NCBI GenBank assembly: GCA_902596375.1
Contig: CACJTU010000009.1
Location: 1 to 36,011, forward strand
Direction: 5' to 3'
Origin: an uncultured Pelagibacteraceae bacterium
GTDB taxonomy: Bacteria > Pseudomonadota > Alphaproteobacteria > Pelagibacterales > Pelagibacteraceae
Length of the DNA: 36,011 nt
The position numbers and the translations under genes were made by a program. How positions within the stretch are numbered: the first letter of the stretch is position 1; every line of letters starts with the position of its first letter. This document shows positions 110-19,664 of the stretch, one piece after another. The notes below the pieces were generated by a model, which was not told the origin of the DNA, searched no databases, and saw only the letters and a program-made list of their open reading frames with translations.

Positions 110-1648
110 ATGGATATAGTTTTTATTAATCCTTCGATAGGTCAAAATTATCAATCACTTAAATCTAAATATACAGCGATTGAGCCACCTACATGGTCTT
201 TATTATTAGCGGAGTCTATGAGAAATTTTGGTTTTACAGTTTCTATAATCGACGCTAATGCTGAAGAACTTACTAAAGAAGAAATATTTCGAAGAATCGA
301 AAATCTTAAACCAAGATTAGTTGCATTTGTAGTTTATGGACAAAATGTTAATGCTGGAACAACTAATATGGAAGGTGCTCTTGAAGTAAGCAAATATCTA
401 AAAGAAAAAAATAATGAGTTAAAAATATCATATATAGGATCTTATGTTCAAGCGCTACCGATAAAATGTTTAAAAGAAGAGAAAAGTATTGATATTGTTT
501 TTACAAATGAGGGAGTTTACGCTCTAAAAAATATTTTATCATTAAAGAGTATAGAAAATGACAAGCTTAAGGAAATAAAAGGAATAGCCTTTAGATTAAT
601 GGATGAGATAGTCCATAATGATCCTGAAAAAGTTGTTCCAGGTGAAAGAATGGATCAAGATTTGCCTGGTTATGCTTGGGATTTGCTTCCATTTAAAAAT
701 AGACCTTTAGATTTGTATAGGTCACCTATGTGGCATGCAGAGTATGATGATGATAAAAGATCCCCATACGCTGCTTTACAAACTTCACTAGGTTGTCAGT
801 TCAAATGTAGTTTCTGTATGATTAATTTAATTAATAGAAATGACTCAGAAGAAATTGGAGTTTCATCTAATTACAGCAAAATGAGATTTTGGAGCCCTGA
901 TTTTATTATAAAAGAATTTGAAAAATTAATTAACATGGGAGTAAAAACAATAAGAATTACAGATGAAATGTTTCTTCTTAATCCAAAATATTATTTACCA
1001 TTATGTAAAAAATTAGCAGAGCTAAACTTTGATGATAGTTTAAGAATGTGGGCTTATTCGAGAATAGACACTGTAAAAAATCCTGAAGTTCTGTCTATAG
1101 TTAGAAAAGCAGGTATAAAATGGCTTTGCTTAGGTATAGAAAGTGGTGATAAAAAAGTGCGGCTTGAAGTTGCTAAAGGGAAATTTGAAGATGTTGATGT
1201 TAAGAAAGTTATTAATCAAGTGCATGAAGCAGATATAGATGTAATGGCAAACTATATGTTTGGACTTCCAGGGGATGACGATGAAACTATTAAGAAAACT
1301 TTTGATCTTAGTGTAGAATTGTGTACTTCCGGGTGGAACACATATGCGGCAATGGCTTTACCAGGAAGTTTGCTGTATAAACAAGCCGTTGAAAAAGGTC
1401 TTGAACTGCCAAAAAGTTATTCAGGTTACTCTTTCCATGCATACGATACCGTATGTCTACCAACTGAAAAGCTAAAAGCATGGCAAATTTTAAAATTGAG
1501 AGATGAAGCATTTATAAATTATCATACTAATCCCAAGTTTTTGGAAAGAATTAAAACTAGATTTGGAAATAAAGCTGAACAAAATATAAAAGAAATGTCT
1601 AAGATAAAACTTACTAGAAAAATTGTGGAAGAAAATTTGAAAAATTAA
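110..1648 (+). CDS. B12-binding-domain radical SAM protein
   Basis: The 512-residue protein has two visible parts. Residues 1-150 look like the N-terminal cobalamin-binding Rossmann domain common in this family (MDIVFINPS start, then a PTW segment), but lack the DxHxxG lower-ligand motif. Residues about 220-450 form a radical SAM core with CxxxCxxC at C229, C233 and C236 in the context SLGCQFKCSFC. Family members use SAM, and often B12, for methylation or other radical chemistry on unactivated carbons. The gene is followed after 16 bases by a PhyH-type dioxygenase, so both may modify the same glycan or lipid. The ATG at 110 has no clear Shine-Dalgarno sequence. Bases 1-109 hold no gene I can support. 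Radical SAM assignment is firm; the substrate is unknown. Confidence 0.85.
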   Translation: MDIVFINPSIGQNYQSLKSKYTAIEPPTWSLLLAESMRNFGFTVSIIDANAEELTKEEIFRRIENLKPRLVAFVVYGQNVNAGTTNMEGALEVSKYLKEKNNELKISYIGSYVQALPIKCLKEEKSIDIVFTNEGVYALKNILSLKSIENDKLKEIKGIAFRLMDEIVHNDPEKVVPGERMDQDLPGYAWDLLPFKNRPLDLYRSPMWHAEYDDDKRSPYAALQTSLGCQFKCSFCMINLINRNDSEEIGVSSNYSKMRFWSPDFIIKEFEKLINMGVKTIRITDEMFLLNPKYYLPLCKKLAELNFDDSLRMWAYSRIDTVKNPEVLSIVRKAGIKWLCLGIESGDKKVRLEVAKGKFEDVDVKKVINQVHEADIDVMANYMFGLPGDDDETIKKTFDLSVELCTSGWNTYAAMALPGSLLYKQAVEKGLELPKSYSGYSFHAYDTVCLPTEKLKAWQILKLRDEAFINYHTNPKFLERIKTRFGNKAEQNIKEMSKIKLTRKIVEENLKN

Positions 1649-1664
1649 ACTTTAAAAATTTCAA

Positions 1665-2735
1665 ATGATTCAACATATAAGAAAAAAAATTTTTAAAACA
1701 ATTTGTATTCTAATAGTTAAATTTTTTTCTCCTAAAAATAAACTTATAAGTTATCTTTTTAATTTTTCAAAAAATTTATCAAGTGATGCAATTTATTTTG
1801 CAAAATATGAAGATAAAAAAAATATAATTAATTTTATTAACAAAAAATTTCAAAATGAAAATTATAAAATTTATGATGATTTTGAAAAAATAAGTATTGA
1901 CGAAAATATGCATTCTGTTGTTAGAGATTTAAATACAACAGGTATATCAGATAATTTTGAAACATTATTATCATTTCAGGAGGCAGAAGAATTCAATTAT
2001 AAAATAAACAATTCAGATTATTACGATAGTCATGTCCCTTATTTAACAAAGAAAAAGTCTTATAAAGATACACCAGAAGGACCATATAAAAGTTACTCTT
2101 ATGAGACACAATTAAATAACCCGTCAATACTTAAAGTTTGTTTAAATGAAAAAATAATTAAAATTGCAAAAGAATATCTTGGAAGTATTCCAAAAATTTA
2201 CAGTATAAACACTTTTGTAACACTGCCTGGAAAAAAAGCTTTTACTCATGATTTTCACAGAGATATTGATAATCTTAAATGGTTAGTGGTATTTATTTAT
2301 TGGACAAAAACCTTAAATAATGATGGGGCTTTCGAACAAATAAAATTTACTCATAAACCATCTAAAAAATTAGAAGATATTTTAAATAAAAAACCTCAAT
2401 ATTTTTCAAATCAATTCGATAAATTTTTTTTAAAAACTGTACCAGGATATGGATTAAATGAAAAATATAGCGATATATTTAACTCAGAAATAAAAAATGT
2501 ATCAGGAGATCCAGGTAAAATTGTTATGTGTGATACTTTGGGTTTGCATAGAGGTACTAGTGTAAAGAAAATAAGAAATGTTACTTGGATTAGGTATGGA
2601 GTTATATCTTCTAGACAAGAAGCTTTAAAGAGTGGAGAAGTATTAAGTAAAAAAATAATACTATCTGATGAATCAATGAAGATGATTAATAAATCAAGAT
2701 ATAGCTATGTTTTATCTGATATAGTTGAAATATAA
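1665..2735 (+). CDS. Phytanoyl-CoA dioxygenase (PhyH)-like Fe(II)/2-oxoglutarate oxygenase
   Basis: The 356-residue protein carries the facial-triad pattern of PhyH-type oxygenases. HDFHRD at residues 195-200 gives the HxD pair H198/D200, and LGLHRG gives a distal H295, followed by R310 in VTWIRYG, a plausible 2-oxoglutarate anchor. The first 30 residues are basic and hydrophobic and could associate with the membrane. PhyH relatives hydroxylate small molecules, lipids or sugars, and they are common in surface-glycan islands without a known substrate. It lies 16 bases after the radical SAM gene and 100 bases before the transketolase array, so it probably closes the first transcription unit. 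The fold assignment is good; the reaction is inferred only as hydroxylation. Confidence 0.7.
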   Translation: MIQHIRKKIFKTICILIVKFFSPKNKLISYLFNFSKNLSSDAIYFAKYEDKKNIINFINKKFQNENYKIYDDFEKISIDENMHSVVRDLNTTGISDNFETLLSFQEAEEFNYKINNSDYYDSHVPYLTKKKSYKDTPEGPYKSYSYETQLNNPSILKVCLNEKIIKIAKEYLGSIPKIYSINTFVTLPGKKAFTHDFHRDIDNLKWLVVFIYWTKTLNNDGAFEQIKFTHKPSKKLEDILNKKPQYFSNQFDKFFLKTVPGYGLNEKYSDIFNSEIKNVSGDPGKIVMCDTLGLHRGTSVKKIRNVTWIRYGVISSRQEALKSGEVLSKKIILSDESMKMINKSRYSYVLSDIVEI

Positions 2736-2776
2736 ATTAAAACCTTTAATAAAATAAATTATAATTAAGTTTATAT

Positions 2777-2803
2777 TTGAAAAATAATTAAATTTAGTAT
2801 AGT
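2777..2803 (+). promoter_or_regulatory. Possible promoter before the transketolase array
   Basis: The 100-base gap 2736-2835 is the largest before 32009 and precedes 26 tightly packed plus-strand genes. It contains TTGAAA at 2777-2782 and TATAGT at 2798-2803, resembling sigma70 -35 and -10 boxes. The 15-base spacer is shorter than the usual 17, and in AT-rich DNA such matches occur by chance. Placement is the main support. Confidence 0.25.
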
Positions 2804-2835
2804 CCACTTTTCAAATTAATAAATTCTATAAAATT

Positions 2836-3642
2836 ATGAATAAAGCAAATGACCTGTCAGTAATATGTAAAAATTACAGAAAAATATTATTTGAAAAATT
2901 TTTGGAGGTTGGTCAAGGTCATCCTGGGTCAGTTTTTTCGATGTTAGAAATTGTAGTGAGTTTGTTTTACAAATCTCATATAAGATTTGATGAGAGTAAA
3001 AAAAAATTTAAAGATAAAATTATTATAAGCAAAGGCCATGCAACAGTAACTTTATATCCAATATTAAAGGATTTTGGAGTATTAAGTGAGGATGATTGGA
3101 ATAATTGGGGTAAAAAAAATGGTGAATCTATTTTAAGAGTATTTGGCAACACCTCTATTCCTGGAATAGACGCGACATCAGGCTCGTTAGGTCATGGGCT
3201 AGGCATAGGATGTGGTTTAGCTTATCTTTATAAGAAAAAAAATATTGATAAAAAAGTATATGTAGTGATAAGTGAAGGTGAACTTTATGAGGGTTCAACT
3301 TGGGAAGCATTGCTTTTTGCAGCTCATCATAAACTTGATAACTTGAATATAATTATCGATGAGAATTCATTAATTATTTTAGGTAATACAGATAATTGTT
3401 TAAAACTAGATCCAATAAAAAGTAAAATTGAAGGATTTGGATTTGAAGTAATTGAAGTTGATGGTCATAATCTTGATGAATTAGACAATGCTTTTTCAAA
3501 AAAAACTGACAAATCTAAAATTGTTTTAGCTAAAACAATTAAAGGCAAGGGGTTTTCAATTATGGAGAATAAAGCTCATTGGCATTATTGGAATGTTATT
3601 AATGAAAAGGATATTGAAATATGTAGAAAGGATATTGAATGA
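2836..3642 (+). CDS. Transketolase, N-terminal (ThDP-binding) subunit
   Basis: The 268 residues match the N-terminal third of transketolase: GHPGS at 28-32, KGHA at 66-69 and SGSLGHGLGIG at 115-125. The diphosphate/Mg motif GDG-x(~28)-N is altered: the sequence reads SEGE at 146-149 with N177 conserved, so the metal-binding Asp is Glu. The partner C-terminal subunit follows with a 4-base overlap, so the two form a split enzyme. Split transketolases move two-carbon ketol units, and related two-subunit ThDP enzymes attach two-carbon branches to keto sugars. The sugar-biosynthetic neighbours argue for a dedicated role in glycan precursor synthesis rather than the pentose phosphate pathway. Family is certain; substrate is inferred. 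Confidence 0.9.
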   Translation: MNKANDLSVICKNYRKILFEKFLEVGQGHPGSVFSMLEIVVSLFYKSHIRFDESKKKFKDKIIISKGHATVTLYPILKDFGVLSEDDWNNWGKKNGESILRVFGNTSIPGIDATSGSLGHGLGIGCGLAYLYKKKNIDKKVYVVISEGELYEGSTWEALLFAAHHKLDNLNIIIDENSLIILGNTDNCLKLDPIKSKIEGFGFEVIEVDGHNLDELDNAFSKKTDKSKIVLAKTIKGKGFSIMENKAHWHYWNVINEKDIEICRKDIE

Positions 3643-4562
3643 CAAAGCTTCAAAGAGATATCTTTTTAGATGAGATAAATTCCCAACTTGAGAAAGATAA
3701 AGATATTTTTGTAATGAGTGCAGACTTTGGTGCAGCATCATTAGATATTACTAGAGATAAATTCAAAGAGAATTTCATTCATTGTGGAATATCTGAGCAA
3801 GCAATGTTTGATATAGGAACAGGTTTGGCTCTAGAAGGAAAAAAAGTGATTGCATATGCAATGGGACCATTCATTTCTTTAAGAGCAATTGAGCAAATTA
3901 AATGTGGACCAGCAATGATGAATCTTCCAATGACAATTTTATCAGTTGGTATTGGTTTAGGTTACGCTGATGCTGGGCCAACTCACTATGCAACTGAAGA
4001 CTATGCATGTTTAAGAGCTATAGGTGGAACTTCAATTTTTACAGCTTCGGATAACAAAATTGTGAAACAAATTGCTGAAAAAGTTTTAAATCATCAAAAG
4101 GTAAACTATGTTCGTCTAGACAGACATCCTACAAATGATTTAAATGAATTATCTAATAATTATGATTTTGAGGATGGATTTAGAATATTTGGATCTTATT
4201 CAGAGAACAAAATGGCAATCATCTCTCATGGAAGAATTTTACATAACTGCATAAAATCTGTGAAAGAGTTAAGTAATGAAGTTTTTTTAATCGATTTATT
4301 TCGATCCAAACCGATATCAAAAAAATTTTCAGACATTCTTAAAAATGTAAAATCGATATTAGTTGTAGATGAACAAACACAATACGGAAATTTAACTTCA
4401 GCTGTACAGTCTGAATTATCAAAGAATCAAATATTTCCAAAAATAAAAAATTTATCTTTGCCTGATGAATATATATTTAAAAATGGAGGTAGAGATTTTT
4501 TACTCAGCTTACACAAATTGGATGAAGATAATATCTTGAATTCGTGTAAGGAATTATTGTGA
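3639..4562 (+). CDS. Transketolase, C-terminal (pyrimidine-binding) subunit
   Basis: The 307-residue protein has the middle and C-terminal transketolase domains. GISEQ at residues 50-54 supplies the Glu (E53) that activates the thiamine aminopyrimidine, and GPTHYATED around H116 is the conserved substrate-side segment. The C-terminal domain includes DEQTQYGNLTSA, typical of the transketolase/DXS group. The start overlaps the N-terminal subunit stop (ATGA, 3639-3642), implying coupled translation and equal amounts. With the upstream gene it should form an alpha2beta2-type enzyme. I see no loss of key residues in this half, so the complex is likely active despite the altered metal motif in its partner. 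Function in the window is inferred from neighbours. Confidence 0.9.
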   Translation: MTKLQRDIFLDEINSQLEKDKDIFVMSADFGAASLDITRDKFKENFIHCGISEQAMFDIGTGLALEGKKVIAYAMGPFISLRAIEQIKCGPAMMNLPMTILSVGIGLGYADAGPTHYATEDYACLRAIGGTSIFTASDNKIVKQIAEKVLNHQKVNYVRLDRHPTNDLNELSNNYDFEDGFRIFGSYSENKMAIISHGRILHNCIKSVKELSNEVFLIDLFRSKPISKKFSDILKNVKSILVVDEQTQYGNLTSAVQSELSKNQIFPKIKNLSLPDEYIFKNGGRDFLLSLHKLDEDNILNSCKELL

Positions 4563-5554
4563 TAATCTCGAGAACTCCCTATAGAATATCTTTTTTTGGT
4601 GGTGGTACTGATTACCCTGAATGGTATAAAAAATTTGGCGGGGAAGTTATATCAACATCAATAAATAAATATGTTTATATTTCTGTTAGAAATCTTCCAA
4701 AATTTTTTAAACATAAATACAGAATCTTATACTCAAAAGATGAACAAGTTCAAAAATTAGAGAATATAAAACACAAGCCTGTAAGAGAAATTCTAAAGTA
4801 TTATAAAATTAATAATGGTATTGAAGTTCATTATGATGGTGATATTCCTGCAAAAACAGGAGTTGGATCTAGTTCAGCTTTTGTAGTTGGTTTTTTAAAT
4901 GCAATTTCTGAATTGAAAAATAAAAATATAAATAAATTAGAGTTAGCAAGAAAAAGTATTTTTTTAGAAACGAAAATATTAAATGAAGTTGTTGGATCAC
5001 AAGATCAGGTTGCTTGTGCTTGCGGAGGTTTTAATAATATAATTTTTCATAAAAATGGTTCATTTAAAATTAAAAAAATAAATATTGAAAATAACGACAA
5101 GATGATTTTGCAAAATAATTTATTTTTAGTTTATTCAAAAATACAAAGAACAGCAGAGATTATTGCTAAATCTTTTGTAAATAACCTTTCTGAAAAGAAA
5201 ATAAATGAAATGCAAATGATTAATGGAATTTTGAAAGATGCTAAAAAAATTATTCGATCAAAAAAATTTGGTGATTTTGGAAAATTATTGCATGAAAGTT
5301 GGTTGGCAAAAAGAAGTTTAAGTAGCAAGGTCACAAATCATAAAATTGATGAATTGTATAATTATGCTTTAGAGGCAGGTGCAGATGGTGGAAAATTATT
5401 AGGTGCTGGAGGGGGTGGTTTTTTTGTTTTTTATGTTAAAAGGAATAATCAAAAAAAATTTATAAAAAAAATGAAAAAAACACTTATACTGCCTTTTCAG
5501 TTTGATGATACAGGAAGTAAAATTATAGTTAATACGAATTCACATGAAAAATAA
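4559..5554 (+). CDS. GHMP kinase, heptose-7-phosphate kinase (HddA)-like
   Basis: This 331-residue GHMP-superfamily kinase starts at GTG (4559) overlapping the previous stop. It begins with RTPYRISFFGGGTDYPEW, typical of D-glycero-alpha-D-manno-heptose-7-phosphate kinases and related sugar kinases. The ATP loop GVGSSSA lies at residues 101-107, and the C-terminal glycine-rich motif GGKLLGAGGGG is near residue 280. HddA-type enzymes make heptose 1,7-bisphosphate for GDP-heptose synthesis, but the usual partners GmhA, GmhB and HddC are not in the window, so they may be encoded elsewhere or the substrate may differ. Its place directly after a split transketolase suggests phosphorylation of a transketolase-derived sugar. 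Kinase family is clear; the exact sugar is not. Confidence 0.8.
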   Translation: MIISRTPYRISFFGGGTDYPEWYKKFGGEVISTSINKYVYISVRNLPKFFKHKYRILYSKDEQVQKLENIKHKPVREILKYYKINNGIEVHYDGDIPAKTGVGSSSAFVVGFLNAISELKNKNINKLELARKSIFLETKILNEVVGSQDQVACACGGFNNIIFHKNGSFKIKKINIENNDKMILQNNLFLVYSKIQRTAEIIAKSFVNNLSEKKINEMQMINGILKDAKKIIRSKKFGDFGKLLHESWLAKRSLSSKVTNHKIDELYNYALEAGADGGKLLGAGGGGFFVFYVKRNNQKKFIKKMKKTLILPFQFDDTGSKIIVNTNSHEK

Positions 5555-6722
5555 AATTAAGTTTCCATTAATGCAAAACAATATTCTTAAACAGGATATT
5601 GATAAAGTAATAAAATTTTTAAAAAAAAGTTCAATTTTAACTCAAAATAAAGAAGTGCTAAAATTTGAGAAAATTTGGTCAAAATGGTTGGGAGTTAAAT
5701 ATAGTGTTTTTGTAAATTCAGGCTCATCTGCAAATCTTTTATCAATTCAATTGTTGAAATTAAAATATCCTAAAGGGGGTGAAGTAATAGTGCCTCCTTT
5801 AACTTGGTCATCTGATGTAGCATCTTTAATTCATTGTGGATTTAAACCAGTGTTTGTAGATATAGACTTAAATACCCTTGGGATGAATACTGAGGGAATA
5901 ATTTCGAAAATAAATAAAAATACAAGAGCAGTTTTCTTAAGCTATATTCAAGGATTTAATTGTCTAAGTGATAAATTAAATAATTTTTTAAAAAAGAAAA
6001 AAATTATGCTTATCGAAGATGTATGTGAGTCCCATGGAGCTCAATTTAAAAATAAAAAATTAGGTACTTATGGATGGACTTCAAACTTTTCATTTTATTA
6101 CGCTCATCATATGAGCACAATCGAAGGAGGAATGATTTGTACTAATGATAAAAAAGCATACTATGATTTGCTTATGTTGAGGTCGCATGGAATGATAAGA
6201 GAGGTAAAAGACCAAAAATTTCAAAGTTTTATGAAAAAAAAATATAAAGACCTTAATTCAAAATTTATTTTTTACCACCCAGCATACAATGTAAGAAATA
6301 ATGAAATTGGTGCAATAATTGGTCAATCTCAAATTAAAAGATTAGACTCAAATATAAAAAAAAGAAATTCAAATTTAAATTATTTTTTAAATAAATTAGA
6401 TAAAAATATCTATTTTACAGATTTTGATACTAAGGGACAAAGTAATTATGCATTTAATGTAATTTTAAAAGAAAAAAATAAAAAATTGATTGATAGGCTA
6501 CAAAAAAGATTAGATAAAAATGGTATTGAGTTTAGACTTGGATCAGCAGGTGGCGGTAATCAACTTAGACAACCATACATAAAAAAATTATTTCCTAAAA
6601 ATACGATGTTAAAATTTAAAAATACCGAACACATGCACTTTTATGGAATGTACATTGGAAATTATCCAGAATTAAATAAAAATAAAATTGATTTTATCTT
6701 AAAAATTTTAAATACAATATAA
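5544..6722 (+). CDS. DegT/DnrJ/EryC1-fold PLP enzyme with His at the Lys position (ColD/RfbH-like dehydratase)
   Basis: The 392-residue protein has the sugar-aminotransferase fold: NSGSSAN at 58-64, the PLP-pyridine Asp in IEDVCESHGA (D159), and SFYYAHHMSTIEGG at 183-196. In aminotransferases the sixth residue of that last motif is the Schiff-base Lys; here it is H188. This substitution is the hallmark of PLP-dependent sugar 3-dehydratases such as ColD and RfbH, which remove the C3 hydroxyl. Length is close to ColD (about 388). I see no RfbH-type iron-sulfur cysteine set, so ColD-like chemistry is the better guess. The gene overlaps the kinase by 11 bases. Likely product: a 3-deoxy-4-keto sugar nucleotide. 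Databases may label it aminotransferase. Confidence 0.8.
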   Translation: MKNKIKFPLMQNNILKQDIDKVIKFLKKSSILTQNKEVLKFEKIWSKWLGVKYSVFVNSGSSANLLSIQLLKLKYPKGGEVIVPPLTWSSDVASLIHCGFKPVFVDIDLNTLGMNTEGIISKINKNTRAVFLSYIQGFNCLSDKLNNFLKKKKIMLIEDVCESHGAQFKNKKLGTYGWTSNFSFYYAHHMSTIEGGMICTNDKKAYYDLLMLRSHGMIREVKDQKFQSFMKKKYKDLNSKFIFYHPAYNVRNNEIGAIIGQSQIKRLDSNIKKRNSNLNYFLNKLDKNIYFTDFDTKGQSNYAFNVILKEKNKKLIDRLQKRLDKNGIEFRLGSAGGGNQLRQPYIKKLFPKNTMLKFKNTEHMHFYGMYIGNYPELNKNKIDFILKILNTI

Positions 6723-6724
6723 AA

Positions 6725-7657
6725 ATGAAAATTTTAGTTACAGGTGGTGCGGGATATATAGGATCAATTTTAGTTCCAGAATTATTGAATAAGGGACACC
6801 AAGTTACCGTTTTAGATAATTTTATGTTCAAACAATTAAGTCTAAATCACTTATGTGTATTTGATAAATTTAAAATTTTGAATGGAGACATAAGGGATAA
6901 AAAATTAATGAAATCTCTGCTAAATTCAAATGATGTAATTATTCCTCTCGCAGCAATAGTAGGTGCTCCTCTCTGCAATAAAGATCCTTATTCTGCCCAA
7001 AGTATAAATTCAGATGCAATAAAAGATATGATTAAAATGGCTTCTAAAAATCAAATGATAATAATGCCAACAACCAATAGCGCATATGGAACAGGAGATA
7101 AAAATAATTTTTGTGACGAAAATTCCCCTTTAAGACCAATTTCTAAGTACGCTATAGATAAAGTTGAAATAGAGAAACTTTTAATGGCTAGGGAAAATTC
7201 TATAAGTTATAGATTAGCAACGGTCTTTGGTATGTCTCCTAGAATGAGAATTGATTTATTAGTAAATGATTTTACCTATAGAGCATTCCATGATTCTGCG
7301 CTAATTATCTTTGAAGGACATTTTAAAAGAAATTATATTCATATTAGAGATGTAGTTAACGCTTTTTTACACGCTTTAAACAATCTGGATTCCATGAAAT
7401 CAGAAATTTATAACGTCGGACTAAGTGATGCAAATTTATCAAAATTAGAACTTTGTGAAGAAATAAAAAAACATTTACCAAATTTTACTTTTGTTGAAGA
7501 GAAGATTAAAAAAGATCCTGACCAAAGAAATTATATTGTATCTAATGAAAAAATTGAGAAAACAGGTTTTAAACCAAAATATTCTTTATCAGATGGAATT
7601 AGTGAATTAATAAAAGGCTATGTTATGCTTAAAAATCAAAGTTTTGGTAATTTTTAA
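6725..7657 (+). CDS. NAD-dependent epimerase/dehydratase (extended SDR)
   Basis: The 310-residue protein has the NAD(P)-binding GGAGYIGS at residues 7-14, acidic DN at 31-32 (NAD preference), TNSAYG near 117-122 and the catalytic Y142-x3-K146 pair. This is the extended short-chain dehydrogenase fold used for sugar-nucleotide epimerisation, dehydration and reduction. It starts 2 bases after the PLP gene and is likely in the same sugar pathway. The usual SSVYG-type serine segment reads TNSAYG, so the catalytic Ser is shifted or replaced. It might be the 4-epimerase or 4,6-dehydratase step feeding the dehydratase, but the sequence alone does not decide. Confidence 0.8.
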   Translation: MKILVTGGAGYIGSILVPELLNKGHQVTVLDNFMFKQLSLNHLCVFDKFKILNGDIRDKKLMKSLLNSNDVIIPLAAIVGAPLCNKDPYSAQSINSDAIKDMIKMASKNQMIIMPTTNSAYGTGDKNNFCDENSPLRPISKYAIDKVEIEKLLMARENSISYRLATVFGMSPRMRIDLLVNDFTYRAFHDSALIIFEGHFKRNYIHIRDVVNAFLHALNNLDSMKSEIYNVGLSDANLSKLELCEEIKKHLPNFTFVEEKIKKDPDQRNYIVSNEKIEKTGFKPKYSLSDGISELIKGYVMLKNQSFGNF

Positions 7658-7668
7658 TTAAATTTGAC

Positions 7669-7674
7669 AGGAGA
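7669..7674 (+). promoter_or_regulatory. Shine-Dalgarno sequence for the gene at 7683
   Basis: AGGAGA lies 8 bases before the ATG at 7683. It is one of few strong ribosome binding sites in the window, and it occurs at the widest gap (25 bases) inside the long array, where translational coupling would be weakest. Confidence 0.6.
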
Positions 7675-7682
7675 TTTAATCA

Positions 7683-8591
7683 ATGAATATACTAATAACT
7701 GGTGGAAGTGGTTTTTTAGGTAAGTATTTAACTAAATCTCTTAAAAAAAAAAAATCTATTAAAGTAATTAGTTTGTCATCAAAAGATGCTGACTTAAGAT
7801 TAAATGGATCTTTAAGTAAATTAAATAAAATAAAATTTAAAAAAATCTATCATTTAGCTTCTTGGTCACAAGCTGGTAAATTCTCATTACATCATTCTGG
7901 TGAACAGTGGTTAAATAATCAACTGATAAATACAAATGTACTTAATTGGATTCATAAATATCAAATGCAGGCAAAACTTATTACCATCGGCACAAATTTA
8001 TCATATCAGGAAGGAATTAAACTAAATGAAAATAATTATTTGAAAGGAGAACCAATTAAAGCTTATACATCATATGCCATGTCAAAAAGAATGTTGTTAA
8101 TCGGACAACAAGCGATGGCTAAACAATTCGGATTAAAGTTTATAACATTCGTTCCACCCACACTTTATGGGAAAGGATATGAAATAAATAAAAAAGAACC
8201 ACATTTTATTTTTGATATTATTCAAAAGATTCTGAAAGCAAAAAAAAATAATACTAATGTTGAATTATGGGGTGATGGAAGTCAAAAAAGAGAATTATTG
8301 CATGTTAATGATTTCATTAAAATTATGCTAAGTTTAGAAAATAGATGTGAAAACGAGGTAGTAAATATTGCAGCAAAAAAAGACTATGAAATAAAATATT
8401 TGGCTAAAATTATTTGTAAAATTGTTGGATATCCTTATAAACGAATAATATTCAACCAACAGAAATTTATAGGACCTAAGTCAAAAAAACTTTTGATAAA
8501 AAAATTGGAAAAATATGTTCCAAGTTACAAATTTATCACATTAAATGATGGATTGTTAGAAACTATAAAATATTTAAAAAAAATAATCTAA
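7683..8591 (+). CDS. Extended SDR, GDP-fucose synthase-like sugar reductase/epimerase
   Basis: The 302-residue protein shows GGSGFLGK at 7-14 and the catalytic Y131-x3-K135 in SYAMSKRM. The segment VPPTLYGKGYE and the WGDGSQKRELLHVNDF stretch resemble GDP-fucose synthase (Fcl/WcaG) and ColC, which epimerise and reduce 4-keto-6-deoxy sugars. Aligned from memory to Fcl, the catalytic His is retained (H174) but the catalytic Cys is replaced (GTNLS at 103-107), so it may reduce without full epimerisation. It has its own strong ribosome binding site. A run of 12 A (7743-7754) encodes four Lys. Likely role: last reduction of the sugar made by this module. Confidence 0.75.
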   Translation: MNILITGGSGFLGKYLTKSLKKKKSIKVISLSSKDADLRLNGSLSKLNKIKFKKIYHLASWSQAGKFSLHHSGEQWLNNQLINTNVLNWIHKYQMQAKLITIGTNLSYQEGIKLNENNYLKGEPIKAYTSYAMSKRMLLIGQQAMAKQFGLKFITFVPPTLYGKGYEINKKEPHFIFDIIQKILKAKKNNTNVELWGDGSQKRELLHVNDFIKIMLSLENRCENEVVNIAAKKDYEIKYLAKIICKIVGYPYKRIIFNQQKFIGPKSKKLLIKKLEKYVPSYKFITLNDGLLETIKYLKKII

Positions 8592-13266: not shown

Positions 13267-13842
13267 ATGAAAAATATAATTTTAATTGGAGCTGGTGGTC
13301 ATGCTAATTCAGTGTATGATGTATTGTTATCAACAAAAATTTTTAAAATTGAAAAGATATTAGATAACAAAACTAAAAATAAGTTTAATGGATTAAATGT
13401 AATAAATACAAATCTTTATTTACAAAAAAATAAAATCAAAAAAAACATACATTTGTCTTTTGGGGCTATTTATAATTTAAAAGAAAGACACAAATTATTT
13501 ATTAACTTACAGAGAAAAAAAATTTATAATTTTCCAATCATCATTTCTCCTAGATCTTATGTTTCTAAAAATGTTCAAATACTTGAAGGCACTATAGTAA
13601 TGCATAATTCTTTAATTAATTTTGGATCAAGAATATCTAAAAATGTTGTAATCAATACAGGTTCTGTAATTGAACACGACGTAACTATTCAAGATAACTC
13701 ACATATCTCAACAGGTGTTATTGTAAATGGGGGAGTATCTATTGGAAAAAATTGCTTTATAGGAAGTGGCTCTGTGCTTAGAGAAAATGTCAAAATACCT
13801 GATAATTCGTTTATTAAAATGGGTTCAGTTATAAAAAAATAA
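13267..13842 (+). CDS. neuD: NeuD/PglD-family sugar acetyltransferase
   Basis: The 191-residue protein has an N-terminal Rossmann-like domain with IGAGGHA (7-13) and a C-terminal left-handed beta-helix of hexapeptide repeats (about residues 95-191). H137 in SVIEHDV matches the catalytic His of PglD. Family members transfer acetyl from acetyl-CoA to an amino or hydroxyl group of a sugar. Its place immediately before neuB, with no gap, links it to nonulosonic acid synthesis: either NeuD (O-acetylation of sialic acid) or LegH-type (N-acetylation of a 4-amino sugar). The sequence does not separate these. Confidence 0.8.
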   Translation: MKNIILIGAGGHANSVYDVLLSTKIFKIEKILDNKTKNKFNGLNVINTNLYLQKNKIKKNIHLSFGAIYNLKERHKLFINLQRKKIYNFPIIISPRSYVSKNVQILEGTIVMHNSLINFGSRISKNVVINTGSVIEHDVTIQDNSHISTGVIVNGGVSIGKNCFIGSGSVLRENVKIPDNSFIKMGSVIKK

Positions 13843-14847
13843 ATGAAAAATAAAAATAAATTAATAATTATAGCTGAAATAGGAATTAATCATAATGGCT
13901 CATTGAAAATAGCAAAAAAATTAGTTGATAAAGCAAAAGATAGTGGCGCAGATTTTATAAAAATTCAAAATTATTTACCTGGTTTGATAGTTACAAAAAA
14001 CAATCCCAAAGCTCAATATCAAAAAAATAATAATCAAAACGAAAACATGCAATCAATGCTTAGGAAGTATCATTTTAATTTTTCAAAAACATCTCAATTA
14101 TTGAAGTATTGTAAAAAGAAAAATATTAAATTTTTATCTAGTCCATTTGATGAGGTAAGTTTTGATTATCTGAGAAAAAAAAGATTAAGTTTAATTAAAA
14201 TTCCCTCAGGTGAAATTACTAATTTTCCACTATTAAAAGTAATAGCTAAATATAATAAAAAAATAATCCTTTCGACTGGCATGTCTAAACTAAAAGAGGT
14301 AAAGAATGCTTTGGATTTTTTAAGAAGTAATGGTTTAAATAAAAATAATATAACTATACTACATTGTACATCACAATATCCTACTAAACCAGAGGATGTA
14401 AATTTAAAAGCTATGCTTACTTTGAAAAAAGAGTTTAAAGTTGATGTAGGATTGTCTGATCATACTTTGGGATTTGAGTCTTCAATCTGTGCAGTCTATT
14501 TAGGAGCAACAGTTATTGAAAAACACTTTACCTTAAATAAAAAAATGGAAGGGCCAGATCATAATTCAAGTCTGGAACCAAATGAATTTAAAAATTTTGT
14601 TCAAGCTTTAAGAAATACAAAGTTTGTAGCTGGTTCTTCAAAAAAAAAACCGTCAAAAGAAGAGTTAAAATTGGCAAAACTTGTTAGAAAAAGAATTGTT
14701 GCAAAAAAAAATATCTTTAAAGGTGAGATCTTAAACGTTGATAATATTACTACTAAGAGATCTAATAAAGGTACAGATGCTTCTAAATTTTTTGATTTCA
14801 TTAACAAAAAAGCTAAAAAAAATTATAGAATTGATCAAGCGATATGA
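13843..14847 (+). CDS. neuB: Nonulosonic acid synthase (NeuB/LegI family)
   Basis: The 334-residue protein has the NeuB barrel starting AEIGINHNGS, then KIPSGEITNFPLL and VGLSDHTLG, and ends in an antifreeze-like SAF domain (about 280-334). It condenses an N-acetylmannosamine-type sugar with phosphoenolpyruvate to give a nine-carbon acid. MEGPDHNSSLEP favours the NeuB/LegI branch over PseI, which usually lacks GPDH. The ATG abuts the NeuD stop, and the stop overlaps neuC (ATGA). Product may be sialic or legionaminic acid or a derivative. Confidence 0.92.
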   Translation: MKNKNKLIIIAEIGINHNGSLKIAKKLVDKAKDSGADFIKIQNYLPGLIVTKNNPKAQYQKNNNQNENMQSMLRKYHFNFSKTSQLLKYCKKKNIKFLSSPFDEVSFDYLRKKRLSLIKIPSGEITNFPLLKVIAKYNKKIILSTGMSKLKEVKNALDFLRSNGLNKNNITILHCTSQYPTKPEDVNLKAMLTLKKEFKVDVGLSDHTLGFESSICAVYLGATVIEKHFTLNKKMEGPDHNSSLEPNEFKNFVQALRNTKFVAGSSKKKPSKEELKLAKLVRKRIVAKKNIFKGEILNVDNITTKRSNKGTDASKFFDFINKKAKKNYRIDQAI

Positions 14848-16004
14848 AAAAAATTTGTGTAATAACTGGCTCACGGTCAGAATATGGATTATTGAAAAAC
14901 ATAATTTCAGAAATTAAAAAATCAAATAAGCTAAAATTACAATTAGTTGTAACTGGTTCACATTTATCAAATGATTTTGGATTAACTGTAAAACAAATAA
15001 TTAAAGATAAATTTAAAATCAATAAAAAAATAAAAATCTTACAAAAAAAAGATAACGAGACAAATCTAACGAAAGCCATGTCTTATGGATTAATTAAATT
15101 TACAAATGTTTTTAAAACTTTAAAACCAGATTTAATTTTAATTCTTGGTGATAGATATGAAATACTTTCATCGGCAATTTCTGCATTATTCCTAAAAATT
15201 CCTATAGCACACTTACATGGAGGGGAAAGGTCTGAAGGTGCTTATGATGAGTCAATAAGGCATGCGATAACAAAATTTTCACATTTACATTTTGTATCCA
15301 CTCTTTCACATAAAAAAAGAGTTATACAATTAGGAGAGAATCCAAAGAATGTTTATTTTACAGGTTCTATTGGAGTCGAAAATATAAAAAAATTAAAATT
15401 TCATTCAAAAAAATTTTTAGAAAAAAAATTTAATGTTAAATTTGAGAAAAAAAATTTATTTATTATATTTCATCCTGCAACTTTAGAGGATAATACTCAA
15501 AAAAAAAATATGACTGAGATATTAAAAGCTGTTTCTAATTTCAAAAATTATGGTAAATTTTTTGTTTACCCAAGTGCTGACTTAGGAGGAAAATCGATAA
15601 TAAAGTTGATTAATAAATTTGTAAAAAAAAATAAGTTCTCATTTAAATTTAAATCTTTAAATCAAAATGATTATTTTTCATTTGTTAAAAAATGTGACGT
15701 TGTTATTGGTAACTCTTCAAGTGGAATAATTGAAGTTCCAAGTATAAATGTGGGTGTGATAAATATAGGGGATAGACAAAGAGGTAGAGTAAAAAGCAAA
15801 GCTGTTATAGATTGCAAGCCATCTTCTAAGGAAATTATTAAAAGTATAAATACATTAATGAAAAATAAAAAAAAATTTTTGTCTTATAGTAATCCTTATG
15901 ATCTTAGTGGCACAACTAGAAAAATTATAAGCATCATTGAAAGAAAAAATAAAGTTAAGGAATTAATAAAAAAAAAATTTTTTGATTTGGAGAAAGTATT
16001 ATGA
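14844..16004 (+). CDS. neuC: UDP-N-acetylglucosamine 2-epimerase, hydrolysing (NeuC/LegG)
   Basis: The 386-residue protein has the GT-B-like epimerase fold with TGSRSEYGLL at the N terminus, ILGDRYE in the middle, HLHGGERSEGAYDESIRHA, and the nucleotide-binding GNSSSGIIEVP late in the sequence. It converts a UDP-HexNAc to free ManNAc-type sugar plus UDP, the substrate for NeuB. It is translationally coupled to neuB upstream and to the amidotransferase gene downstream by 4-base overlaps. NeuC and LegG differ in substrate (UDP-GlcNAc versus the diacetylated 6-deoxy sugar) and cannot be told apart by eye. Confidence 0.9.
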   Translation: MKKICVITGSRSEYGLLKNIISEIKKSNKLKLQLVVTGSHLSNDFGLTVKQIIKDKFKINKKIKILQKKDNETNLTKAMSYGLIKFTNVFKTLKPDLILILGDRYEILSSAISALFLKIPIAHLHGGERSEGAYDESIRHAITKFSHLHFVSTLSHKKRVIQLGENPKNVYFTGSIGVENIKKLKFHSKKFLEKKFNVKFEKKNLFIIFHPATLEDNTQKKNMTEILKAVSNFKNYGKFFVYPSADLGGKSIIKLINKFVKKNKFSFKFKSLNQNDYFSFVKKCDVVIGNSSSGIIEVPSINVGVINIGDRQRGRVKSKAVIDCKPSSKEIIKSINTLMKNKKKFLSYSNPYDLSGTTRKIISIIERKNKVKELIKKKFFDLEKVL

Positions 16005-17317
16005 TTAAATTTCCAAAAGCAGTAGATATTAGTAGTTTCCATAAGAATCTAAAAATTAAAACGACTAAATATGGTTTACCAAAAGATGTTCTGTATTGTA
16101 AAAAATGTGTAGTTTCTAATCAAAGGCCAAATTCTACGATTGAATTTTTAAACAACATTGATCAAAATAAAACTACTATCAAATTCGACCAGGACGGAGT
16201 TTGTGATGCCTGCAATTTATCTGAGAGGAAGAAAAACAATATAGATTGGGATAAAAGAGAAAAAGATTTAATTAAATTATGTAATAGATTTAGGAAAGAA
16301 GATGGATCATATGACTGTATTGTACCAGGATCAGGCGGAAAAGATAGTTTTTATACTTCTCATGTACTTAAACATAAATACAAAATGAACCCACTTACAG
16401 TTACATGGGCCCCTCATATATATACTGATTGGGGAAGACGAAATTTTGATAGGTGGATACATGCTGGACATGATAATTATTTAATTTCACCTAACGGAAA
16501 AGTACATAGGTTGCTTACTAGATTAGCAATGGATAAATTATTCCACCCATTTCAACCTTTTATAATTGGTCAAAAATTAGTTGCTTCTAAGTTGGCTCTT
16601 CAGCTTAAAATTCCACTTATATTTTATGGAGAAAATGAAAGTGAATATGGAAACCCTATCTCCGATACAGAAACTGCTTTGAGGAGTGAAGAATATTTTA
16701 AATCTGATAGCAAAGACTTGTATTTAGGAGGTGTGCATGTTGATGAGCTATTAAATAAGTTTAGCATCACCAAAAATGAGCTATCTCCCTATTTGCCCCT
16801 AAAATCAGAAAATTTTGAGAAAATTAAAATCGAAACACATTATTTGGGTTACTATTTGAAATGGCATCCACAAGCTTGCTATTACTATTCAGTTGAAAAT
16901 GGTGGTTTTGAAGCTTCACCTGAGCGAACAGTTGGAACTTATAGCAAATACACAAGTATAGATGACAAAATAGATGACCTACATTTCTACACAACAGGAA
17001 TAAAATTTGGTATTGGAAGAGCTTCCCACGAAGCTGCTCAAGAAATTAGATCTGGAGATATTGAGAGAGATGAGGGTGTAAGTTTGGTTAAAAGGTATGA
17101 TCATGAGTACCCTGAGAGATTTAAGGATGAGTTATTTTCATATTTATCAATAAATGAAAAAGAATTTCCAGATGCTCATAAGATGTTTGAGCAACCTATT
17201 TTTGACGAGAAGTATTTTAATAATTTAGCTGATAACTTTAGATCTCCACATATTTGGTATTATGAAAAAAAAAAAGATAGCAATCAAGTTTGGCACTTAA
17301 GACATACCCTTAAATAA
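16001..17317 (+). CDS. wbpG: N-acetyl sugar amidotransferase (WbpG/PseA/PtmG-like)
   Basis: The 438-residue protein has a PP-loop ATP pyrophosphatase motif PGSGGKDS at 109-116 and two N-terminal zinc-type cysteine pairs, C33/C36 and C68/C71. This matches WbpG and PseA, which convert an acetamido group of a sugar to acetamidino using ammonia. The next two genes encode HisF and HisH paralogues, the partners supplying ammonia for WbpG. A GGAG at 15989-15992 gives a good ribosome site 8 bases before ATG. The gene looks less A/T-saturated than neighbours such as 26916-27842 in the lines I counted. Within a neu cluster the target is probably the nonulosonic acid or its precursor. Confidence 0.88.
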   Translation: MIKFPKAVDISSFHKNLKIKTTKYGLPKDVLYCKKCVVSNQRPNSTIEFLNNIDQNKTTIKFDQDGVCDACNLSERKKNNIDWDKREKDLIKLCNRFRKEDGSYDCIVPGSGGKDSFYTSHVLKHKYKMNPLTVTWAPHIYTDWGRRNFDRWIHAGHDNYLISPNGKVHRLLTRLAMDKLFHPFQPFIIGQKLVASKLALQLKIPLIFYGENESEYGNPISDTETALRSEEYFKSDSKDLYLGGVHVDELLNKFSITKNELSPYLPLKSENFEKIKIETHYLGYYLKWHPQACYYYSVENGGFEASPERTVGTYSKYTSIDDKIDDLHFYTTGIKFGIGRASHEAAQEIRSGDIERDEGVSLVKRYDHEYPERFKDELFSYLSINEKEFPDAHKMFEQPIFDEKYFNNLADNFRSPHIWYYEKKKDSNQVWHLRHTLK

Positions 17318-17320
17318 TAA

Positions 17321-18079
17321 ATGAGAAATGTAAGAGTAATTGCAAGATTAGACATAAAAAATAACAACTTAATTAAAGGTATACATCTTGAAGGATTAAG
17401 AAAACTAGGAAAACCCTATGATTTTGCTAAAAAATATTTTCAATCAGGAGTAGATGAAATAATATATATGGATAGTGTTGCAAGTCTATATAATAGAAAT
17501 AGTTTAAATAATATTATTGAGGAAACTTCAAAAAATATTTTTATACCAATTACAGTAGGTGGTGGGATTAGGTCTATTGATGATGCAAATAATATATTAA
17601 GGAGTGGAGCAGATAAAATTGCTATTAATACTGGTGCTGTAAAGAATCCAAAATTGTTAGAAGATCTGTCAAATAGATTTGGAAGTTCAACTATAGTTTT
17701 ATCTGTTGAAGCTAAAAAAAAATATGATGGTACTTGGGAGGCTTATACCAATAACGGGAGGGAAAAAACTGGTTTAAATGTTGTAGAATGGTGTATTGAA
17801 GCAGAGAAATTGGGAGTTGGAGAAATTTTACTTACATCAGTAGATAACGAGGGAACTTGCAATGGTTTTGATTATGAATTAACTCAATCTGTTTCAAAAA
17901 AAACATTTATTCCAATAATTGCTAGTGGAGGAATGGGTCAATTGAGTCATTTTGAAAAGGTTGTAAAACTCTCAAATTGTGACGGTGTTGCGATTGCAAA
18001 CATGTTACATTATTCTAAGACTACAATTTATGAGATTAAATCGTACTCAATTAAATGCGATATTAATATAAGAGCTTAA
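17321..18079 (+). CDS. hisF: HisF-like cyclase-subunit paralogue (sugar amidotransferase partner)
   Basis: The 252-residue (beta-alpha)8 barrel protein resembles imidazole glycerol phosphate synthase HisF: TVGGGIRSIDDA at 78-89 and PIIASGGMG are conserved. The catalytic D11 is kept (RLDIK), but the second catalytic residue, D130 of Thermotoga HisF, is E130 here (SVEAK), and the usual CLD reads RLD. With WbpG upstream and HisH downstream, and no other histidine genes, it most likely channels ammonia to the sugar amidotransferase rather than making histidine. It starts 3 bases after the WbpG-like gene. Confidence 0.85.
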   Translation: MRNVRVIARLDIKNNNLIKGIHLEGLRKLGKPYDFAKKYFQSGVDEIIYMDSVASLYNRNSLNNIIEETSKNIFIPITVGGGIRSIDDANNILRSGADKIAINTGAVKNPKLLEDLSNRFGSSTIVLSVEAKKKYDGTWEAYTNNGREKTGLNVVEWCIEAEKLGVGEILLTSVDNEGTCNGFDYELTQSVSKKTFIPIIASGGMGQLSHFEKVVKLSNCDGVAIANMLHYSKTTIYEIKSYSIKCDINIRA

Positions 18080-18080
18080 A

Positions 18081-18701
18081 GTGAAAGAAATTGCTATAGT
18101 CGATTATAATCTTGGTAATATTACAAGTATTCGACGGGCCTTATCATTTCTTGGCTACAAATCAATAATAACAAATAATCCAGAAATAATTTTAAAATCT
18201 GAAAAAGTGATTTTGCCAGGCGTAGGAGCTTTTCCTACAGCAATGAGTTATTTAAAAAAGTATGATTTAATTGAAGCTATAAATGAAACTGTAAAGAAAG
18301 GAAACGACATATTAGGCATTTGTTTGGGTATGCAATTATTAATGCAATTTAGTAATGAATTTGAAAGAACCAAAGGTCTATCATTAATTGAAGGTGACGT
18401 GATATCAATTAATGATATTTTAGATGATAATATAAAGTTGCCGTGCATAGGATGGTATAAGTTAAATAAAACTAAAGATAACACATTGCTTAAAAATATA
18501 AAGAAAGATCAATGGTTTTATTTTGTACATTCATATATGGTAAATTGTAGAAATGAAAATGATGTTATTGCAGATTATTCAGTTAACGACATTTCTATAA
18601 CTGCGATAGTTAAAAAAAATAATATTACCGGTTTACAATTTCATCCTGAAAACAGTGGAATTGAGGGATTAAAATTTTTTACAAATTTTTGTAAAAGTTG
18701 A
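18081..18701 (+). CDS. hisH: HisH-like glutamine amidotransferase paralogue
   Basis: The 206-residue class I glutamine amidotransferase has the nucleophile C81 in GICLGMQ and the H188/E190 pair in FHPEN. LPGVGAFP forms the oxyanion-strand region. It hydrolyses glutamine and passes ammonia through the HisF paralogue. GTG at 18081 lies one base after the hisF stop. The HPEKSG common in HisH reads HPENSG here. Context (WbpG, HisF, HisH in a row) points to acetamidino-sugar formation. Confidence 0.88.
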   Translation: MKEIAIVDYNLGNITSIRRALSFLGYKSIITNNPEIILKSEKVILPGVGAFPTAMSYLKKYDLIEAINETVKKGNDILGICLGMQLLMQFSNEFERTKGLSLIEGDVISINDILDDNIKLPCIGWYKLNKTKDNTLLKNIKKDQWFYFVHSYMVNCRNENDVIADYSVNDISITAIVKKNNITGLQFHPENSGIEGLKFFTNFCKS

Positions 18702-19664
18702 ATGAATAAAAAAATATTAATTATTGGCTTTGGTGAGATAGCACAAAGACATTATAGAAATTTAAAATTTCTTTTGCCAAATTCAGAAATTGCTATTTTG
18801 ACCAAAAATAAAGATTTTAAGTATAAAAAAGTTATTTATTTTAAAAATTTGAAAGATGCAAAAAAATTCAATCCTGATATCACTTTAATTTGTAGCCCAG
18901 CGCCTTCCCATATTAAATATGCAAGAATATTTACTAAATTAAATTCAAATATTTTTATAGAAAAGCCTGTAGCAACAAGGGTTAATGAATTAAAAAAATT
19001 TCTCAGATTAATAAAAAATAAAAAAATTACATTACTTTCGGGATATAATTTAAGATTTGAGAAGTCTCTTATTTTTTTTCATAAAACTTTAAAAAAGAAA
19101 GAAGTTGGAAAAATACTTTCTGTTAGATCCGAAGTTGGCCAATACTTACCATCTTGGAGAAATAAAGTTTATACTAAAACTGTATCAGCAAACAAAAATT
19201 TGGGAGGTGGGGCTATAAATGAACTAAGTCACGACGTAGATGTTTTACTAATGTTATTTAAAAAATTAAAACTTGTTTATAGCATAAATTTAAATGCAAG
19301 TAATTTAAAAGTAAATGCGGAAGATTCTGCTCACACAATTTTTAAATCAAATTATAATAAAAAAAATTTTTATATTTTTTTAAATATAGATTTTTATAGA
19401 CATGATCACACAAGGACATGTACTGTGATTGGATCAAAAGCCACATTAAAATGGGATGGAATTTTGAATGAGGTTAAAATTTACAAAAAAAATTCAAAAA
19501 AACCAAAATTAGTTAAATTTAATAATACTAAAAATGATTCTTATTTGAATGAAATGAGATTCTTTTTAAAAAATATAAAAAAAAAAAATTCACTATATAC
19601 TGATTTTAAAGAAAATTTAAACTTAGTTAAAATTTTACAATCGATGAAAAAAAATAAAAAGTAA
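18702..19664 (+). CDS. Gfo/Idh/MocA-family sugar oxidoreductase
   Basis: The 320-residue protein has IGFGEIAQRH at 8-17, the motif E87-K88-P89 followed by VAT, and GGGAINELSHDVD with the probable catalytic H177 and D178. It is the most canonical of the four Gfo/Idh proteins in the window. It sits directly between hisH and the CMP-sugar synthetase gene, sharing one base with the latter (TAATG), so a role in nonulosonic acid modification or precursor supply is likely. Similar genes flank ptmA/ptmB in Campylobacter legionaminic loci (recalled). A 12-A run (19577-19588) lies near the 3' end. Confidence 0.85.
   Translation: MNKKILIIGFGEIAQRHYRNLKFLLPNSEIAILTKNKDFKYKKVIYFKNLKDAKKFNPDITLICSPAPSHIKYARIFTKLNSNIFIEKPVATRVNELKKFLRLIKNKKITLLSGYNLRFEKSLIFFHKTLKKKEVGKILSVRSEVGQYLPSWRNKVYTKTVSANKNLGGGAINELSHDVDVLLMLFKKLKLVYSINLNASNLKVNAEDSAHTIFKSNYNKKNFYIFLNIDFYRHDHTRTCTVIGSKATLKWDGILNEVKIYKKNSKKPKLVKFNNTKNDSYLNEMRFFLKNIKKKNSLYTDFKENLNLVKILQSMKKNKK

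Follow-up and report, generated by a model that had tools for sequence, protein, structure and literature searches.

What sugar is made where a transketolase split over two subunits, a heptose-type kinase, a pyridoxal 5'-phosphate (PLP) enzyme of the ColD type and a short-chain dehydrogenase/reductase (SDR) lie beside a radical S-adenosylmethionine (SAM) enzyme? The question is raised by the first 9 kb of a 36,011-nucleotide stretch, here called the window, which is the entire contig C9 (CACJTU010000009.1) of genome G000 (GenBank assembly GCA_902596375.1; 1.16 Mb, 87% complete). The host belongs to the family Pelagibacteraceae (SAR11), and the window region looks like a glycan-gene island. An earlier note on this DNA had joined six genes at 2836-8591 into a candidate pathway to a branched-chain or higher-carbon 3-deoxy sugar. 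We now regard it as probable that a conserved module, which takes in most of these genes, builds a GDP-linked, branched 3-deoxy sugar of nine carbons, destined for a surface glycan of the host.

In the pathway that we propose, the first of two SDRs (SDR1) would oxidise GDP-heptose at C4, and the ColD-type enzyme would take off the C3 hydroxyl to give GDP-3-deoxy-4-keto-heptose. The gene context suggests that the split transketolase would then add two carbons at the C4 ketone, to yield a tertiary alcohol that carries an acyl branch, and that pairs of the pyruvate dehydrogenase E1 type would do the same in other bacteria. The radical SAM enzyme would work on the branched sugar or its precursor, a role assigned solely from its constant company, and might either link the tail of the heptose to the branch in a ring or dehydrate a diol.

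Composition and spread of the module

The open reading frames and their Pfam and NCBIfam matches agreed with the six genes of the earlier note in position and family; all six are on the plus strand. Successive frames overlap by 4, 4 and 11 bases and are then separated by gaps of 2 and 25 bases, which is consistent with coupling of the six genes. The boundaries of the unit had to be redrawn, since the note had overlooked its most conserved member, the radical SAM gene at 110..1648 (plus strand). This core gene encodes a 512-residue protein of the B12-binding type, with Pfam Radical_SAM and B12-binding matches. We compared the surroundings of the closest relatives (L035-L039) of the N-terminal transketolase subunit, TKN, in which the radical SAM protein is the best-conserved module member at 66-73% identity. 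L035, L036, L037 and L039 have in common with the window the radical SAM gene, TKN, the C-terminal subunit TKC, the kinase, the ColD-type gene and SDR1, in three distinct gene orders among these four loci and the window; L038 ends at a contig edge, with four of the six core genes visible. Around split transketolases of lower identity (L040-L054, 36-45%), none of the 15 stretches examined gave a radical SAM match above 60 bits.

Two further genes were rejected as core members because L035-L039 share neither. The second SDR, SDR2 (7683..8591, plus strand), which the note had included, is an Epimerase-family protein resembling GDP-L-fucose synthase (GDPFucSynFcl, 112 bits against a cutoff of 500); it has no counterpart in L035-L039 and a 62% relative in the nearest locus, L056, and is a variable accessory. 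The gene at 1665..2735 (plus strand), also accessory although it lies between core genes, encodes a 356-residue protein with no Pfam or NCBIfam match at 0.001, and only L056 among the loci compared carries a relative (55%). The module is thus the radical SAM enzyme, the ColD-type 3-dehydratase, the HddA-like kinase, SDR1 and a two-subunit thiamine diphosphate (ThDP) enzyme.

Named genomes were scanned with the radical SAM alignment, and the best 80 of 100 stretches encoding a relative form the 80 loci discussed below, mostly from metagenome-assembled or single-cell genomes. Gene families were found by clustering the proteins of these loci and scanning cluster representatives, and the hidden Markov models for the gene calls were built from the same loci on which they were then run. 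The loci span Pelagibacteraceae, SAR116, Rhodospirillaceae, Bacteriovoracaceae, Myxococcota, Verrucomicrobia, Planctomycetes, Chloroflexi, Nitrospirota, Bacteroidota and others. Among the 39 with at least 7 kb on either side of the radical SAM gene (the well-flanked loci), a ThDP pair was found in 36, the ColD-type gene in 33, the kinase in 30, SDR1 in 25 and a nucleotidyltransferase in 24; the complete five-part set was present in 24. GDP-fucose-synthase-like genes (10 loci), RmlC-like genes (7), GmhA (5) and GMD-like genes (5) were less frequent.

A second sample comprised 398 Pseudomonadota genomes, including G000, and the radical SAM profile matched 14 of them. The 13 loci other than our own carry a transketolase pair (9), E1-type genes (2, with only the beta subunit at L162) or neither (2). 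A profile of the module ColD-type enzyme matched 21 of the 398 genomes in two sharply separate groups, with 8 matches at 626 bits or more and 16 at 274 bits or less; all 8 high-scoring matches lie on the same contig as the radical SAM gene and within about 6 kb of it. Conceivably, the neighbourhood is accidental, in a variable O-antigen island whose genes serve different sugars. Gene order does vary, and 15 of the 39 well-flanked loci are without at least one of the five parts; however, these partners turn up together in six phyla or more, reshuffled though they are, and the module-type ColD gene occurred only beside the radical SAM gene (8/8) in the Pseudomonadota sample. We give an accidental neighbourhood hardly any credence: the gene set is kept together across phyla.

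Within Pelagibacteraceae, the radical SAM protein had a match at 1e-60 in 26 of 297 genomes, 16 of these above 860 bits, so the module belongs to a minority of the family. We also observed a second, more distant SAR11 radical SAM group at 572-587 bits (G056, G061, G072, G081, G094, G118, G132 and G295). In G056, G061 and G081 its radical SAM and split transketolase genes are on separate contigs, and seven of the eight matches cross one in-frame TAA.

Replicons of named strains carry related arrangements. On plasmid AZO_p6 of Azospirillum lipoferum 4B, a plant-beneficial strain in culture, a ColD-type gene with an HH site, an E1 pair, SDR1 and an HddC-GmhB fusion occupy one stretch, and roughly 20 kb from it lie genes for a radical SAM enzyme, the kinase and a GDP-fucose-synthase-like protein. 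On pDMC1 of Solidesulfovibrio magneticus (strain RS-1 is likewise in culture), genes for a radical SAM enzyme, a NUDIX protein, the kinase, an E1 pair, a GDP-fucose-synthase-like protein, a His-type DegT protein, SDR1 and a nucleotidyltransferase are consecutive. A. argentinense Az39 has the transketolase pair, radical SAM, SDR1 and kinase genes, and no ColD match within the 25 kb scanned. The module ColD query at 1e-60 matched no plasmid in the plasmid collection, a threshold too strict for the purpose, since even the ColD-type gene of AZO_p6 escapes it. A short E1-alpha query (1e-15) matched 2 of 72,556 plasmid records, both Azospirillum with radical SAM; it misses the E1-alpha of pDMC1, and we do not count it as support. 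The only match in phages was Streptomyces phage SF3 (23% identity; one phage under two records). On AZO_p6 (L173:4745-10436), mtnA and a methylthioadenosine phosphorylase gene adjoin the E1 and DegT genes and may serve salvage of 5'-deoxyadenosine, a radical SAM by-product.

Heptose supply and the predicted 3-deoxy-4-keto intermediate

The kinase gene (4559..5554, plus strand) encodes a GHMP-family protein whose best NCBIfam match is HddA (141 bits, cutoff 600) and whose best PDB matches are the heptose phosphate kinases 4n3o and 3k85; it is predicted to be a D-glycero-D-manno-heptose 7-phosphate 1-kinase. The earlier note had argued against plain GDP-heptose from the absence of GmhA, GmhB and HddC. 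Indeed, no GmhA or HddC-GmhB relative was found in the first 9 kb of the window. Module relatives, though, carry GmhA together with a fusion of an HddC-like nucleotidyltransferase and a GmhB-like phosphatase (domains identified on L063), and relatives of both lie at G000:C20:2837-4566 in the same genome. In the gene order of L056, contig C20, reversed, leads straight into the window, which places GmhA and the HddC-GmhB fusion directly upstream of the radical SAM gene. The GDP-heptose supply set of GmhA, HddA, GmhB and HddC is therefore entirely encoded, the HddA-like member scoring below its equivalog cutoff. With the supply genes next door, and with SDR1 matching what we take to be a GDP-heptose dehydrogenase, the note's case against GDP-heptose falls.

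SDR1 (6725..7657, plus strand), a member of the Epimerase family, matches PDB entries 6vo6 and 6vo8. The match to 6vo6 reached 373.6 bits over residues 2-310, the full length of the protein, and a profile search gave 421 bits for 6vo6 versus 94 for the next PDB sequence; Y142 and K146 of the YxxxK motif are conserved. We take 6vo6 to be Cj1427, the GDP-heptose C4-dehydrogenase, and predict the same NAD-dependent activity for SDR1. A role as 4,6-dehydratase, opening a 6-deoxy route, was considered and set aside on the 6vo6 match and because the TDE motif of such enzymes is lacking, as judged by eye. GMD-like genes at 500 bits or more occur in 7 of the 80 loci, and 6-deoxy variants may exist elsewhere.

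The predicted 3-dehydratase (5544..6722, plus strand) belongs to the DegT family and has ColD as its best PDB match. In the alignment with ColD the PLP lysine is replaced by histidine, and the pair HH188-189 is present in all 59 of the aligned module relatives, bearing out the description of this protein in the note as a ColD/RfbH-like PLP enzyme with His. It is predicted to produce GDP-3-deoxy-4-keto-heptose. Cj1427 oxidises GDP-heptose with NAD and recycles the cofactor with 2-oxoglutarate, and together with a PLP-dependent C3-dehydratase it gave GDP-D-glycero-3-deoxy-4-keto-heptose in vitro (PMC10680097, of which a part is cited here and below). From the module genes we predict the same compound as a natural intermediate; by homology and this published work, the putative route as far as the 3-deoxy-4-keto heptose is well supported.

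The ThDP slot and the radical step

TKN (2836..3642) and TKC (3639..4562), both on the plus strand, divide between them the domains of one transketolase: thiamine-binding (Transketolase_N) in the former, and pyrimidine-binding (Transket_pyr) and C-terminal (Transketolase_C) in the latter, all above Pfam cutoffs. The split transketolase entries 6yak and 6yaj are among their best PDB matches. Across the 80 loci the same slot is occupied by a split transketolase, a short E1 pair (cluster means 223 and 179 residues) or a full-length E1 pair, and 66 loci have a two-subunit ThDP enzyme: a short E1 in 33 (one of them, L062 at a contig edge, scored from the beta subunit only), a transketolase in 21, a full-length E1 in 10 (the assignments in L130 and L132 being weak, at 91-139 bits), a transketolase with a short E1 in 1 and a transketolase with a full-length E1 in 1. 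In L080, from SAR11, the radical SAM gene has ThDP pairs of both kinds beside it, short E1 and transketolase, perhaps a replacement under way.

In a tree built from 85 radical SAM proteins, 68 of them typed, parsimony required at least 21 changes of ThDP type; shuffled labels gave a mean of 28.8, and none of 200 shuffles was as low. Well-supported branches alone force fewer changes, at least 9 for the transketolase label. In this labelling the full-length E1 of L069 was ignored, that pair lying about 8 kb from TKN; L080, which has both types, and 16 type-less rows were left unlabelled, two of these rows (L139 and L140) although E1 genes exist about 20 kb off. These counts point to some inheritance and much exchange of ThDP type along the radical SAM tree. 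The module transketolases themselves cluster in few clades, with 2 changes among 25 rows against a shuffled mean of 17.6, and 3 among 34 against 20.3 after nine loci were added; rows below 115 bits (below 200 for the added loci) and duplicate sequences had been removed beforehand. The active-site His of the GHP motif, which we take to be the substrate-binding H100 of Escherichia coli and H103 of yeast in ordinary transketolases, is lost in 32 of the 34, including that of the window. Phe or Tyr stands in its place in the clade to which the window belongs, and Ile in another clade; all 27 transketolases examined from outside the module, 25 split and 2 of full-length type, retain the His. The donor could therefore differ from that of an ordinary transketolase, and acetyl is conceivable.

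Sedoheptulose 7-phosphate is both a product of transketolase and the substrate of GmhA, and with GmhA and HddC-GmhB linked to the module the transketolase might merely feed ordinary GDP-heptose synthesis, with no branching. This appears very unlikely: E1-type genes, not expected to make that compound, fill the slot in 43 of the 80 loci (33 short, 10 full), nearly all module transketolases are without the active-site His, and a full-length transketolase frame (661 residues) is present elsewhere in the genome, at G000:C7. The last also shows that the pair is not the sole transketolase of the genome, and with the E1-type genes in the slot it led us to reject a central-metabolism role.

At a second site, L041:8364-12305, a split transketolase pair lies beside an RfbH-type His dehydratase and a CDP-glucose 4,6-dehydratase (433 bits, over the cutoff), and in L043 and L044 a His-type dehydratase likewise adjoins the pair. 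Because transketolase and E1 pairs interchange, and because L041 provides a second pairing with an RfbH-type dehydratase, two-carbon branching of a 3-deoxy-4-keto sugar is the best reading of the slot, and branching is likely. The earlier note's branched higher 3-deoxy sugar thus stands in outline, by virtue of the ThDP pair beside the ColD-type gene, the E1 exchange and L041, although its dismissal of heptose and its gene boundaries do not. Neither observation that the note had named as fatal to its idea, a sole transketolase acting in central metabolism or a gene set not kept together, was borne out. As an observation apart, L041, where no radical SAM match exceeded 60 bits, resembles a yersiniose-type cluster with transketolase in the place of YerE.

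Residues C229, C233 and C236 of the radical SAM protein (CxxxCxxC) were invariant in 38 sequences. Its AlphaFold model (mean predicted local distance difference test score, pLDDT, 92.5) came closest to AprD4 among solved folds (Z 29.8), with MgmA, CysS, TsrM and OxsB next (Z 25.1-26.5); that HpnJ or other families were not among the fold matches is uninformative on function. AprD4 was also the best PDB sequence match (49 bits), and NCBIfam scores were 124.8 bits for HpnJ, 109 for BchE and 61 for AprD4. To our knowledge AprD4 carries no cobalamin, and cobalamin binding by the module enzyme is uncertain for that reason. Of the 88 records in the plasmid collection that the radical SAM query matched, the best 40 include 7 Burkholderiaceae rows, annotated HpnJ, and four Paraburkholderia records lie outside those 40; an HpnJ query gave 7 matches in 200 Pseudomonadota genomes, the best at 67% identity.

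Ring closure and diol dehydration are, in our view, about equally likely as the radical step. Branching might proceed as proposed and the radical SAM enzyme act as an AprD4-like 1,2-diol dehydratase on the C6-C7 diol in the tail of the heptose, giving a further deoxygenated open branched sugar with no carbocycle. The lead of AprD4 in fold (29.8 versus 26.5 for the next) and in PDB sequence search makes this a serious possibility, if still short of an even chance, and AprD4 acts on a sugar (title of PDB 6fd2); the higher HpnJ and BchE scores count the other way, and a common fold is no proof of function. It is unlikely that the enzyme is a cobalamin-dependent C-methyltransferase of the heptose and leaves the branch to the ThDP pair. 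Most cobalamin radical SAM enzymes are methylases, and the known non-methylating ones, HpnJ and BchE included, all form or rearrange rings (PMC13142503, a preprint cited in part). TsrM, CysS and MgmA come close in fold (Z 25.6-26.5), but AprD4, the nearest, is no methylase, and the top-scoring families HpnJ and BchE are non-methylating.

Several points weigh against the nine-carbon branched sugar. All pathway steps rest on homology and gene context, and the molecule name of 6vo6, which we take to be Cj1427, is only putative sugar-nucleotide epimerase/dehydratase. Within the stretches covered for the 39 well-flanked loci, SDR1 was not found in 14, the nucleotidyltransferase in 15, the kinase in 9, the ColD-type gene in 6 and a ThDP pair in 3 (L094, L127 and L129). 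Fourteen of the 80 loci have no ThDP pair, 10 of these being shorter than 14 kb, and in the Pseudomonadota sample 6 of the 14 genomes that carry the radical SAM gene are without the module-type ColD. With the active-site His lost, the donated unit may not be hydroxyacetyl, and ordinary sugar-phosphate chemistry is not to be assumed; the nearest fold to the radical SAM model is, moreover, a diol dehydratase.

Elsewhere in the window, genes at 13267-18701 look by eye like NeuD/NeuB/NeuC, PseA and HisF/HisH genes and suggest a nonulosonic acid with an amidino group, and a PseF match below cutoff lies at 19664-20344. A second radical SAM-looking protein, with a CxxxCxxC-like motif by eye, is encoded at 23680-25203, and an LmbE-type deacetylase with weak BshB1 matches at 32277-32978.

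Comparison with known sugar pathways

The GDP-heptose modification of Campylobacter jejuni comes closest in its early steps, having GmhA/HddA/GmhB/HddC supply, an SDR1-like C4-dehydrogenase and a ColD-type 3-dehydratase; in addition, 15 of the 80 loci have an RmlC-like gene and 21 a GDP-fucose-synthase-like gene in the neighbourhood of the module. The C. jejuni set consists of the Cj1427 C4-dehydrogenase, a PLP C3-dehydratase, a C3/C5-epimerase and a C4-reductase. It epimerises and reduces at C4, whereas the module contains a radical SAM enzyme and a putative ThDP carboligase instead, and the shared intermediate GDP-3-deoxy-4-keto-heptose came from an artificial enzyme combination in PMC10680097.

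According to the available part of a 2025 review (PMC12247030), surface-glycan sugars are branched mainly by YerE-type enzymes, while E1-type pairs, the tested ones, add two-carbon branches to keto sugars in antibiotics. In yersiniose and erwiniose synthesis (YerE, ErwE) a 3-deoxy-4-keto sugar nucleotide likewise receives a ThDP-dependent C-C bond at C4 for a surface glycan (PMC12247030). That route uses a CDP-hexose and a decarboxylase fold, unlike the GDP-heptose, split transketolase or E1 fold and radical SAM enzyme considered here. Neither a CDP-glucose 4,6-dehydratase nor a decarboxylase-fold YerE is among the eight genes at 110-8591, the rest of the window not being scanned.

The branched sugars of aldgamycin and kibdelomycin are of the dTDP type. 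Their alphaKADH2 enzymes (KbDH in kibdelomycin) are two-subunit E1-type ThDP pairs that put an acetyl branch on a keto sugar (PMC12247030), and differ from ours in serving antibiotic sugars rather than GDP-heptose in environmental bacteria with many shortened E1 subunits. Split transketolases have been proposed for miharamycin and amipurimycin from 13 Streptomyces sequences, none characterised in vitro as far as the available part of the review goes (PMC12247030). The earlier note's appeal to two-subunit branching enzymes in antibiotic pathways is accordingly borne out for E1-type pairs, transketolase pairs having been only proposed. The miharamycin and amipurimycin clusters resemble the module in placing a split transketolase beside sugar-modifying genes; the module clades occur in SAR11, Verrucomicrobia and others and mostly are without the active-site His, a distinction drawn without direct sequence comparison. 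Exchange of transketolase for E1 in one conserved setting makes the untried split-transketolase proposal directly testable, as the synthesis of the substrate is published (PMC10680097).

HpnJ, OxsB and AprD4 share the B12-domain architecture of the radical SAM enzyme, but identity with one HpnJ is 27% over 345 residues, and the module protein is a separate family defined by the module. What is new is a probable form of sugar-nucleotide branching whose constant partner is a radical SAM enzyme; literature searches (titles and abstract starts, among the matches listed) found no radical SAM enzyme tied to a C2-branching GDP-heptose pathway, and in the same scope no paper on the biosynthetic genes of caryose. 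Bradyrhizose has a C10 skeleton. It was considered as the product (PMC4743980, seen in part) and fits less well by its skeleton.

Caryose, from the lipopolysaccharide of Burkholderia (Trinickia) caryophylli (named in the part of PMC9026286 available), is a 3-deoxy C9 sugar with a C4-C8 bond, a C9 methyl and the C6 hydroxyl kept, which equals a heptose with a two-carbon unit at C4 and closure between C7 and the branch. This match is suggestive only. It leads us, tentatively and at less than even odds, to consider the module a possible route to caryose-like carbocyclic nonoses, in which addition of the two-carbon unit at C4 would be followed by radical joining of C7 and the branch carbonyl carbon into a cyclopentane; E1-type versions would give the 9-deoxy skeleton of caryose, and with transketolase the skeleton would be either that or its 9-hydroxy counterpart. 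If the radical SAM enzyme does close the ring, the origin of carbocyclic sugars such as caryose would be explained, and such sugars would lie on the SAR11 surface, where phage and grazer recognition matters. The kind of sugar that is known from a single plant pathogen would in that case be spread widely over bacterial phyla, SAR11 included.

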